Origin: Sinimarinibacterium sp. NLF-5-8
GTDB lineage: Bacteria > Pseudomonadota > Gammaproteobacteria > Nevskiales > Nevskiaceae
DNA length: 64,000 nt
NCBI RefSeq assembly: GCF_010092425.1
Contig: NZ_CP048030.1
Location: 2,925,501-2,989,500, forward strand
Reading direction: 5' to 3'
In this document: positions 35,515 through 38,743 of the stretch, one piece after another
How the letters are laid out: each line of letters opens with the position of its first letter
How positions within the stretch are numbered: position 1 is the stretch's first letter
Position numbers and translations under genes: made by a program
The notes under the pieces: model-generated
What the model was told of the DNA's origin: nothing
Database searches by the model: none
What the model saw: the letters and a program-made list of their open reading frames with translations, nothing else

Positions 35515-36525
35515 ATGAACATTGAACGTCTGGATCACGGTCGCGTGATCGACAGCACTTTTGAACCCCATCCATGGTTGCGCGGGCCGCACGCGCAAAC
35601 CCTGGTGCCCTCACTGCTGCGTCCCCTGCCCAAACTCGCCATCCGCTATCAACGGCTGGAATTGCCAGACGGTGATTTTGTCGATCTGGGCTGGAGCGGC
35701 GATGAAAACGCCGCGCGCATTGCCGTGCTGGTCCACGGCCTCACCGGCGGCTTTGAATCCAAATATCTGCGCGGCACGGCCCAGCAATTGATCGCGCGCG
35801 GCTGGCAAGTGGTGATGATTCAACTGCGTGGCGGCGGCGAACCCAATCGCCGTGTGCGCTGCTATCACCACGGCGATACCGCCGATCTGCGCTATTTGTG
35901 GCACTGGCTGGCGCAGCACTATCCGCGCGCGCAACTGGCGGCGGCAGGCTGGTCGCTGGGTGCCAATGTGGTGCTCAAGGCGCTGGGCGAGGAAGGCGAT
36001 GACGCCCCGGTTGTGGCCGCTGCCGCAGGCTGCGCGCCGTTTGAACTGGAAACCTGTGCCAACAAAATGCGTCACGGCAGCGCGCGCCTGTATCAAAACC
36101 ATTTGCTTGGCGGGCTTAAAAAAATGGTCAAGCGCAAACATGCCGTCACCCCGCTGCCGGCGCGCCTGCCACTGCAAAACGTCCTCAAGGCCAAGGATTT
36201 TTTTGAGTTCGATAACGCCTTTACCGCGCCCTTGAACGGATTCAAGGATGCCCAGGATTACTACGCGCGCGCGCAATGTCTGCGCTATCTGAACCAGATC
36301 GCGCGCCCCACGCTGATCGTCAATGCGCGCGATGATCCGTTCATGACGCCGACGATGCTGCCCGGTGCCGAACAACTGTCACCGTTTGTCACGCTGGAAG
36401 TGGCGCAGCGCGGCGGCCATGTCGGCTTTATGAGTGCCGGACACGGCAGGCGACCCCGGTTTTGGCTGGAGTCGCACTTTGCCGAGTTTCTGGATCAGCA
36501 GGTGGCCGCCGGCTCAAGCGATTAG
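35515..36525 (+). CDS. YheT-family alpha/beta hydrolase
   Basis: A cytoplasmic hydrolase of 336 residues. The N-terminal WLRGPHAQTLVPSLLRP is the YheT signature. LVHGLTGG forms the oxyanion region and the nucleophile elbow is AAAGWSLGANVVLKALGEEG at about 140-160 (Ser in GWSLG). The acid/His part is NARDDPFM and RGGHVGFM. Members are esterases of unknown physiological substrate, some acting on acyl chains. It ends in a 12-bp tail-to-tail overlap with the aminotransferase gene on the opposite strand. Confidence 0.92.
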   Translation: MNIERLDHGRVIDSTFEPHPWLRGPHAQTLVPSLLRPLPKLAIRYQRLELPDGDFVDLGWSGDENAARIAVLVHGLTGGFESKYLRGTAQQLIARGWQVVMIQLRGGGEPNRRVRCYHHGDTADLRYLWHWLAQHYPRAQLAAAGWSLGANVVLKALGEEGDDAPVVAAAAGCAPFELETCANKMRHGSARLYQNHLLGGLKKMVKRKHAVTPLPARLPLQNVLKAKDFFEFDNAFTAPLNGFKDAQDYYARAQCLRYLNQIARPTLIVNARDDPFMTPTMLPGAEQLSPFVTLEVAQRGGHVGFMSAGHGRRPRFWLESHFAEFLDQQVAAGSSD

Positions 36526-37587
36526 CGGCGGCACTGCCTCGCACCACGGGCGATCGCCAGCGCCAGCCGTGCCGCTTTCCTGCGCCTGCTTGAGCCGCTG
36601 TTGCACCCAGCGCACCAGGCCCCGATCGTTGAATATGATATCGCCCTGACCATCGCCCAGCGCGGTGATGCGCTTGACCCGTGCCGCCGTGCCGGTGCCA
36701 AACGCCGCGCCGAGCAGGCCGCTGGCCTGGGCATGCGCCAGATCCTGCAATGCAATCGGCATTTCCAGCACGCGGATGTCGGCATCGCGCAGCAGGGTGA
36801 TGACACTGCTGCGGGTGATGCCGGCAAGGATGGTGCCGTCCAGCGGCGGAGTCAGCACATCGGTGCCGATCTGCACGAACAGGTTCATCGTTCCCGCCTC
36901 GGCCAGTTGGCTGTGGGTGGCGGCATCCAGCCAGGCCACATCGTCATAACCGTTGGCGCGCGCGTTGAGCAGGCCGCCCATGCCTGCGGCGTAATTGGCG
37001 CTGGCCTTGACCGCACCAAGGCCGCCGCGCGCCGCACGGATCAGTTCGGGTTCTGCCCACAGGCGAACATCCTGCAATTGCGGATCGCTGCACGCGGTGG
37101 CGACGATGCTCAGCCGGTGCAGCTGGGCCGGGCGCAGGCCCAGGGACTCATCTTCGGCAAACAGCGTAGGCCGCAAATACAGGGCACCGCGCCCATGCGG
37201 CGGCACAAATTCGGCGTGGATCTGCACGGCCAGCCGGCACAGCTTGAGAATCAACTCGGTGGGCGGCGCAGGCAGTCCCAGCCGCTGCGCGCTGTGTTGC
37301 AGACGCAGCGCGTGGTCGCGCGCGCGGAACAGATGAATCTGTCCGCGGGCGTCGCGATAGGCTTTGAGCCCTTCAAAGACGGCCAGCGCGTATTGCAGGG
37401 CGCCGCTGGCAACCGGTGCCGGTGCGGCGCCGCGCGGGGTCAGGCTGGGGGCGCTCCAGCCGTGGTGGTCACGGTGTTGTGCCTCGACCAGATACGGCGC
37501 GAGGTACTGGCCAAAGCCCAGTGCTTCGGGAGCCGGCCAATCGGGTGGCAGAGGGGTGGGGAGCGGGAAGTGAGGTGGCAGATTCAT
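36514..37587 (-). CDS. ilvE: Branched-chain amino acid aminotransferase (BCAT2 type)
   Basis: A class IV PLP aminotransferase of 357 residues that interconverts valine, leucine and isoleucine with their 2-oxo acids. The PLP lysine is in GGLGAVKASANYAAGMGG (about residue 196). The substrate loop LQYALAVFEGLKAYR, LYLRPTLFA and TPPLDGTILAGITRSSVITL are typical of the long, eukaryote-like BCAT2 form rather than the 300-residue IlvE. It is preceded by a leader peptide and a terminator, annotated separately, that form a transcription attenuator. This strongly supports a biosynthetic role. It lies downstream of, and is separately controlled from, the ypjD-like gene. Confidence 0.93.
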   Translation of the reverse strand: MNLPPHFPLPTPLPPDWPAPEALGFGQYLAPYLVEAQHRDHHGWSAPSLTPRGAAPAPVASGALQYALAVFEGLKAYRDARGQIHLFRARDHALRLQHSAQRLGLPAPPTELILKLCRLAVQIHAEFVPPHGRGALYLRPTLFAEDESLGLRPAQLHRLSIVATACSDPQLQDVRLWAEPELIRAARGGLGAVKASANYAAGMGGLLNARANGYDDVAWLDAATHSQLAEAGTMNLFVQIGTDVLTPPLDGTILAGITRSSVITLLRDADIRVLEMPIALQDLAHAQASGLLGAAFGTGTAARVKRITALGDGQGDIIFNDRGLVRWVQQRLKQAQESGTAGAGDRPWCEAVPPLIA

Positions 37588-37649: not shown

Positions 37650-37687
37650 AAAAAACCCCCGCCGGCCCTGGAAGGCCGACGGGGGTT
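37650..37687 (-). terminator. Attenuator terminator of ilvE
   Basis: Read on the minus strand, AACCCCCGTCGGCC (37687-37674) pairs with GGCCGGCGGGGGTT (37667-37654), 14 bp with a single T-G pair and a 6-nt loop. It is followed by six T (37655-37650). It lies between the leader peptide stop and the ilvE start, and its 5' arm can instead pair with the leader (37720-37714), the mutually exclusive antiterminator. Confidence 0.92.
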
Positions 37688-37707
37688 GGTTACGCAAACA
37701 CCACCCG

Positions 37708-37770
37708 TTACGGCCCGTCGCTGATAGCGACGACCATAATGACGACGGCGGCGTGTTTGAACAGATTCAT
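37708..37770 (-). CDS. ilv leader peptide
   Basis: A 20-codon frame reading MNLFKHAAVVIMVVAISDGP. It has four Val, two Ile and one Leu, with VVI and VV clustered just before the hairpin segment. It is analogous to the ilv leader peptides of enterobacteria. Ribosome stalling on Val/Ile codons would cover segment 1 (37732-37726) and free segment 2 (37722-37714) to pair with the terminator 5' arm. Too short for ordinary gene prediction. No strong ribosome-binding site precedes the ATG. Confidence 0.8.
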   Translation of the reverse strand: MNLFKHAAVVIMVVAISDGP

Positions 37771-37811
37771 GAGCTGTTTGGATCGTGGAGCAAGGTGAAA
37801 ACGGTGCGCAC

Positions 37812-37838
37812 GCTATATCGTGATGGTCAGAATGTCAA
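37812..37838 (-). promoter_or_regulatory. Promoter of the ilvE leader transcript
   Basis: On the minus strand, TTGACA (37838-37833, perfect -35) is followed after 15 bp by TATAGC (37817-37812, a 4 of 6 match to the -10). The transcript would begin about 35 bp before the leader ATG. The short spacer is the weak point. It lies just past the stop of the ypjD-like gene, so ilvE can be expressed independently. Confidence 0.6.
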
Positions 37839-37852
37839 GCGCACGACAAGGA

Positions 37853-38635
37853 TCAGCTCCAGTGCGTGCCAAGCACCTGTTCCAGAATCAGTTTGCTGCC
37901 AAAGTAGGCGAGGATCAGCATGGCGTATCCGGCCAGTGTCCAGCGGATTGCGGTGCGCCCGCGCCAGCCGAATTTGGCGCGCCCCCAGAGCAGAACTGCA
38001 AAAATCAGCCATGCGCTGATCGACAGAACCGTCTTGTGTGCCAGGTGCTGGGCCAGCCAGTCGCGGATGAAGCCCAGGCCCGAAATCAGGGTCAGCGAGA
38101 GCAGGAAAAAGCCGATGCCGATGAGCTGAAACAGCAGCCGTTCCATGGTTTGCAGCGGCGGCAGGGCCGCCATCAGCCCGGTCATTCTGCGGGTGCGCAA
38201 AAGGCGCTCCTGGATCGCCAGCAGGCAGGCGTGGACAGCCGCCAGCGTCAGCAGCCCCGATGAGAGCAGGGACAGCACAATGTGCGTGCGCGCGCTCCAG
38301 TCGTCGATGGCGATATCACTGCTTTGTGTGGGCCAGAAGGCGGCGAGCACGGCCATGACCCCGGCAAACGGATAGACCACCGTGCCGATGGTGCGCAGCG
38401 GTTCGCGAAAACACAGGGCCCACAGCAGCAGTGCGGATTGCCATGCAAACAGTGACAGCGCCTCGTTGATGCCAATGGTGATCAGCCCCCCGCCAAACAT
38501 CTGGCCGCTGAGCAGGCCGATGTGCAGCGCCAGTGCCGGCAGCGGCAGCCAGCGACTGCATAACCACTCGGGCTTGCGCAGTCCCAGCCAGGCGGCGGCG
38601 GTGTAAAACAGCAAACTGATGAGGGAGATGGTCAT
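37853..38635 (-). CDS. YpjD/CcsA-type cytochrome c assembly family membrane protein
   Basis: An integral membrane protein of 260 residues with about eight helices. Segments include LISLLFYTAAAWLGL, ALALHIGLLSGQM (a His in helix 2) and VLSLLSSGLLTLAAVHACLLAIQERLL. This is the CcsA-like YpjD family that regularly lies next to ffh in gammaproteobacteria, here divergent from it beyond one gene. The exact role is not defined; heme handling is assumed from the family. The ATG at 38635 is preferred over a TTG nine bases upstream. Confidence 0.88.
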   Translation of the reverse strand: MTISLISLLFYTAAAWLGLRKPEWLCSRWLPLPALALHIGLLSGQMFGGGLITIGINEALSLFAWQSALLLWALCFREPLRTIGTVVYPFAGVMAVLAAFWPTQSSDIAIDDWSARTHIVLSLLSSGLLTLAAVHACLLAIQERLLRTRRMTGLMAALPPLQTMERLLFQLIGIGFFLLSLTLISGLGFIRDWLAQHLAHKTVLSISAWLIFAVLLWGRAKFGWRGRTAIRWTLAGYAMLILAYFGSKLILEQVLGTHWS

Positions 38636-38743
38636 GGGATGCAAAGATTAGGTGCTGACGATGATAAACGCCATTGACACGGATTTTAGGCGTTTGAATC
38701 GCTGTGCTAGTCTGCCCTCCATGTTTAATTTTCAAGATTCCTC

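Follow-up and report, generated by a model that had tools for sequence, protein, structure and literature searches.

The DNA analysed here, a stretch of 64,000 nt from Sinimarinibacterium sp. NLF-5-8 (the window), carries a branched-chain aminotransferase (BCAT) gene on its minus strand, with the gene start at 37587. Its product scores 222.6 bits against the ilvE_II family and 263 bits against PRK13357; neither value reaches the respective curated cut-off. The BCAT gene is apparently monocistronic, as the next gene (35515-36525) converges on it from the plus strand. Since the genome (3.2 Mb, one contig) also encodes an ilvE_I-type BCAT (L002; PRK06606, 410.6 bits at a cut-off of 279), the window gene is a second one. 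The whole attenuator occupies 37838-37650 of the minus strand, 62 nt 5' of the BCAT gene. Further upstream lies a ccsB-like gene (37853-38644, minus strand), whose end is separated from the terminator stem by about 165 nt. The features are as follows, with RNA strands numbered 1 to 4 in the order of transcription.

36514-37587, minus strand: BCAT gene, ilvE_II / PRK13357 type (family profile matches)
37810-37838, minus strand: promoter-like pair TTGACA (37838-37833), 17-nt spacer, TAGCGT (37815-37810) (sequence, alignment with relatives)
37812-37817, minus strand: alternative -10 candidate TATAGC, at a 15-nt spacer from TTGACA
37708-37770, minus strand: leader peptide ORF MNLFKHAAVVIMVVAISDGP plus stop UAA (ORF reading, homologous leaders in relatives)
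37716-37732, minus strand: core 1:2 hairpin, CGUCGCU (37732-37726) with AGCGACG (37722-37716) (sequence, fold)
37698-37754, minus strand: outer helix 1a:2a at the base of the 1:2 domain, ACGCCGCC (37754-37747) with GGUGGUGU (37705-37698) (fold, permutation test)
37674-37715, minus strand: antiterminator 2:3, GGCCG-UA-ACGGG (37715-37704) with CCCGU-CGGCC (37683-37674) (energy, homology to the pairing in relatives)
37654-37687, minus strand: terminator hairpin 3:4 (terminator scan, 15 pairs and a loop of 4; fold)
37650-37655, minus strand: six U in a row behind the terminator; in the scanned stem, the first of these are also paired

The sequence-only reading had interpreted this segment as a full attenuator of the classical kind preceding a BCAT gene, and both the anatomy and the homologues described below bear this out. 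The TTGACA box, the 20-codon leader, the first hairpin, the terminator and the T run at 37655-37650 all lie where it had placed them; the terminator stem comprises 15 pairs by our scan rather than the 14 bp given there. The -10 box is poor, a scan for consensus promoters found no site, and alignment with relatives favours TTGACA-N17-TAGCGT. In each of the nine relatives from the same genus that carry the element, it is preceded by TTGNNN-N18-TAG(A/T)(C/T)T, and any pair of the form TTGNNN-N17/18-TANNNT is present in 12 of 18 relatives and missing from six, including the genome G026 discussed below.

The leader starts with ATG at 37770, stops with TAA at 37710-37708 and contains four Val, two Ile and one Leu among its 20 codons. 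An excess of third-position changes is absent: for the leaders of 20 codons (13 of 19), differences at the three codon positions number 455, 299 and 407 of 1092, second positions thus changing least. The stop codon of this leader, which is rich in branched-chain codons, lies inside antiterminator strand 2, as is typical of ivbL-type attenuators.

Folding, as the sequence-only reading had suggested for the minus-strand RNA, supports a strongly structured element. The 161-nt RNA reaches -70.6 kcal/mol against a mean of -50.8 for shuffled sequences (z -5.2; 0 of 200 shuffles as stable), and the full-length RNA is predicted to form 1:2 plus 3:4. The antiterminator proposed earlier, CGACGGG (37720-37714) with CCCGTCG (37683-37677), does exist, but a shifted pairing of 37715-37704 with 37683-37674 is the better one: ten pairs with a 2-nt bulge at -16.2 kcal/mol, compared with -11.9 for the seven pairs. 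In relatives, strand 2 (CGCCG-UA-GGGG) pairs with CCCC-GC-CGGCG, to which the 10-pair version of the window is homologous. Predicted folds and conservation together yield the mutually exclusive 1:2, 2:3 and 3:4 pairings that characterize attenuators in general.

The helices are conserved to different degrees in the 19 aligned sequences. The 2:3 helix is paired in 95.9% of cells, with one compensatory pair (C-G to G-C), found in the window, and its covariation is weak (55 of 500 shuffles reach the observed pairing percentage). The 1:2 helix (8 pairs) is paired in 95.4% of cells, and its core gave no covariation signal over shuffles (500 of 500) in these sequences. Covariation is nearly absent in both because the helices are so conserved. 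In the terminator, one pair is changed on both sides in three sequences. The outer helix, which joins leader codons about 5-9 with the segment after strand 2, varies in sequence between species, and its two sides match each other better when both come from one species than when they come from two. With all 19 sequences, none of 5000 permutations reached the observed energy; with 15 less redundant ones, 28 of 5000 did. As the permutation does not keep relatedness, we take this as moderate support for a covarying outer helix that would make 1:2 a long domain. By eye only, an alternative outer pairing, CAAACAC (37759-37753) with GUGUUUG (37701-37695), can be drawn on the minus strand. Also by eye, a CGCCGG motif is seen just 3' of the terminator in the window (about 37645-37630, minus strand) and in several relatives (e.g. 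L061 and L066).

A BCAT of the window type was found in 20 of 61 genomes (the own genome and 19 of 60 relatives, E up to 1e-60), among them nine of ten from the same genus; a search for related loci returned one distant relative only. We compared the 7 kb upstream of BCAT in all 19 relatives. In 18 of them this region contains a leader that is rich in Val, 19-22 codons long and succeeded by an almost identical terminator (17 detected by scan, that of G018 by inspection), so that the leader search proposed in the sequence-only reading came out positive; 17 of these 18 leaders end with DAP*. The order is uniform in 17 of the 19 relatives: the element is followed by a gene for the large subunit of acetolactate synthase (AHAS), here ilvB1, which is the last gene before BCAT. 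G026 resembles the window in that leader and terminator immediately precede BCAT, and in G013 neither a leader nor ilvB1 was found within 7 kb upstream of BCAT. Taken literally, the same BCAT thus lacks a leader of its own in 17 of 19 relatives; this does not speak against attenuation, since in these genomes the leader precedes ilvB1, the neighbouring gene upstream in what appears to be the same operon. What was presented as a little-described stand-alone BCAT attenuator does directly precede BCAT in the window and G026; its homologues are of the ilvB (ivbL) type, and the attenuator is BCAT's own only where ilvB1 is missing. The best family for ilvB1 (G004 copy) is PRK08155, which we take to be the E. 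coli IlvB type, with 823.8 bits at a cut-off of 870; an ilvG label for this gene was dropped on these grounds.

Two covariance models were built. R1 comprises 19 sequences, the window included. Of 61 genomes, 26 gave one strong match each (68-128 bits), and the next best hit reached 38.9 bits; in the own genome, the window copy alone is strong (next 29.5 bits). Because R1 contains the window copy, we built R2 from 17 ilvB1-linked copies only, leaving out the window and G026. R2 still recovers the window (65.6 bits, E 2.1e-17), G026 (84.1 bits) and G013 (78.3 bits), although its E-values are rough owing to a short calibration. The element is therefore more than a chance resemblance.

With R1 at E up to 1e-9, the element was detected in 32 of 58 genomes of the family. 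It is followed by ilvB1 in 29, by a possible ilvB1 remnant in G013 and by BCAT in two, the window's own genome (G000) and G026. The first structural gene is thus BCAT in the window and ilvB in 29 of 32 family genomes, which makes the window a derived variant in which the RNA is homologous and the target is not. Of 274 sampled genomes from the class, the own genome included, at least three match at E up to 1e-7, and the other two copies also precede ilvB1; this count is a lower bound, as only 13 candidates per genome were scored. In G016, a genome that is 79% complete, the ilvB1 gene after the attenuator (L078 813-1994) encodes only 394 aa compared with about 570-610 elsewhere. In G013 the attenuator precedes a 114-aa ORF (L082 3343-3846) that is weakly similar to part of ilvB1 (E 1e-5 in a comparison of only four sequences), and the locus resembles a degenerated ilvB1 behind a switch that has been retained. 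Beyond this ORF, on the opposite strand, lies a gene that we presume to be metF-like. The 2.7-Mb genome of G002, from the same genus, has no BCAT match at E up to 1e-60, no ilvB1 orthologue and no strong attenuator match; here the whole attenuator-ilvB1-BCAT module appears to have been lost.

R2 also finds the ivbL-ilvBN attenuator of E. coli K-12 (53.2 bits). With filters off, the ilvL, leuL and thrL regions of E. coli reached only 11.4, 15.9 and 16.4 bits, respectively, and we rejected membership in the ilvL (ilvGMEDA) type on account of the low ilvL score. The E. coli ivbL element shares with the window's family the stop/antiterminator strand CGCCGUAGGG, strand 3 CCCCGCCGGCG and a run of Val codons; its leader ends with NAP* instead of DAP* and comprises 32 codons before ilvB, as opposed to 20 before BCAT in the window. 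A model built without either sequence finds both, and on this comparison of sequence and structure we regard the two attenuators as homologous. At gathering score, no Rfam family matches in the window. Likewise, the E. coli ivbL-ilvBN attenuator (L083 2332-2453) is matched by no Rfam 15 family at that score; the thrL, leuL and ilvL regions each match a cis-regulatory family, RF02744 in the case of ilvL.

No ilvB1 orthologue was found in G000 or G026, where the matches obtained (E up to 1e-60) belong to different AHAS genes, at 40% and 42-45% identity, respectively; true orthologues show 60-77% (57% for the partial G016 copy). The G026 genome is 90% complete, but a single contig carries its attenuator and BCAT side by side. 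A tree of BCAT pairs G000 with G006 (95/91) and G026 with G015 (96/93). Since both sisters retain attenuator-ilvB1-BCAT, ilvB1 was probably lost twice, separately, with BCAT inheriting the switch each time; this is the simplest account of the gene orders. The own genome retains a divergent ilvB / ilvN-ilvC locus, the gene before ilvC being named ilvN by assumption. A 16-kb scan of this locus found no Val/Ile leader with a terminator at those genes; R1 scored 7.2 bits at best in this stretch, and two other matches of the leader scan lie elsewhere in it.

That the hairpin is a plain terminator of the ccsB-like gene, accompanied by a small ORF that arose by chance, would fit the position and shared strand of that gene. 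This reading is contradicted by the homologues and was rejected, its probability being negligible: 31 further family genomes contain the same leader, strand 2 and terminator, and no relative of the ccsB-like gene was found in the 7-kb stretches upstream of BCAT in the 19 relatives (tblastn, E up to 1e-3). Hardly more credible is a small RNA acting in trans, such as a relative of sX13, instead of a cis element. The Rfam model of sX13 does match 37650-37757 (minus strand) with 25.2 bits (E 0.0044). However, this is half of its gathering score of 50, none of six relatives tested gave a match at E up to 1, and the element lies immediately 5' of ilvB1 or BCAT in all but one of the 32 family genomes that carry it; an sX13 assignment was thus rejected.

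Two further explanations accept the attenuator and dispute its present role or its history, and we consider both unlikely, though less so than the former two. The element could be a relict, useless since the loss of ilvB1 and decaying, with BCAT expressed by read-through or from another promoter. In line with this, the window copy has the lowest score of the 19 (88.9 bits, first alignment), and its strand 2, its stop codon (UAA) and its leader end (DGP for DAP) are all changed. On the other hand, terminator and antiterminator are kept, the latter with the compensatory pair mentioned above, and at -31.9 kcal/mol the terminator matches the strength of those in relatives (-22.0 to -32.0 kcal/mol). 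The G026 copy, in which part of the 1:2 core is broken, retains the consensus strand 2 and the terminator core. Alternatively, a stand-alone BCAT attenuator may have arisen de novo or moved in, without any loss of ilvB1, for which one could cite that no ilvB1 remnant was detected in the window (tblastn, no match at E up to 1) and that its upstream neighbour differs from that of the relatives. Against such an origin stand the attenuator-ilvB1-BCAT order in the sister G006, the same change made separately in G026 beside its sister G015, and the short ORF with weak ilvB1 similarity behind the attenuator of G013.

We therefore consider it very probable that the window element is a ribosome-mediated attenuator of the ivbL-ilvB type, mainly valine-sensing, that was re-targeted to BCAT by gene loss. 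The ancestral target would have been an ilvB1-BCAT operon from which ilvB1 was lost in the window's lineage and separately in that of G026; with ilvB1 gone, the switch would now act directly on BCAT. Provided that the element still works, transcription would start 5' of the leader. With plentiful Val-tRNA (and probably Ile- and Leu-tRNA), the ribosome would reach the stop codon and cover antiterminator strand 2, whereupon terminator 3:4 would form and transcription would halt before BCAT. Under valine shortage, the ribosome would stall on the Val/Ile codons and leave strand 2 free, so that 2:3 would form first and RNA polymerase would proceed into BCAT.

Fold predictions are in agreement with this scheme. 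When a ribosome is placed on the first Val/Ile pair of an RNA truncated behind strand 3, all 26 sequences are predicted to form 2:3, with 4-13 pairs. If the ribosome is instead at the stop codon, 2:3 forms in none of the 26, which is trivial as strand 2 is then masked by construction. Without a ribosome, 2:3 is still predicted for 16 of 26 RNAs cut after strand 3, including that of the window, so that a tight shut-off in the absence of translation is uncertain. When the segment before strand 3 was shuffled, a mean of 4.0 pairs was obtained compared with 10.7 observed (19 sequences); for the window alone, a fraction of 0.065 of the shuffles does as well, the range over the 19 sequences being 0.005-0.19.

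Attenuation of ilvBN and ilvGMEDA is established (PMC1183508), and in E. coli expression of a GFP reporter behind the ivbL attenuator falls when Val or Leu is fed (PMC11187965). The ilvL-ilv(X)GMEDA operon of E. coli is comparable in that a branched-chain-synthesis attenuator controls an operon including ilvE; it differs in its type of leader, and ilvE is not the first gene. In E. coli K-12, where ilvG is annotated as a pseudogene, ilvE likewise follows an acetolactate synthase gene that is broken. A branched-chain leader with an attenuator before ilvB is also reported for ilvBNC of Corynebacterium (ilvB-II motif; PMC11857589 and PMC10272879), a member of another phylum likened here by description. 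Among the best matches listed in the open PMC literature, none dealt with this element in front of BCAT. New aspects here are the changed target, the better antiterminator pairing and the moderately covarying outer helix, whereas the kind of element is already known. The survey by Vitreschak et al. 2004 (FEMS Microbiol Lett), reportedly the main comparative one, may already list ilvB1-linked copies.

Our analysis ties the leaders of the window's family to the classical ilvBN attenuator of E. coli and provides a usable covariance model for an element without an Rfam 15 match at gathering score. The window, G026 and perhaps G013 are natural cases of what becomes of an attenuator once the gene it served disappears. 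With some reservation, we lean towards the broader view that at least twice in this family an attenuated operon lost its first gene and its valine sensor thereby passed from AHAS to an aminotransferase, the outer helix covarying and no attenuator having been found at the own ilvB. If this is true, a shortage of valine would induce transamination, not the committed step.
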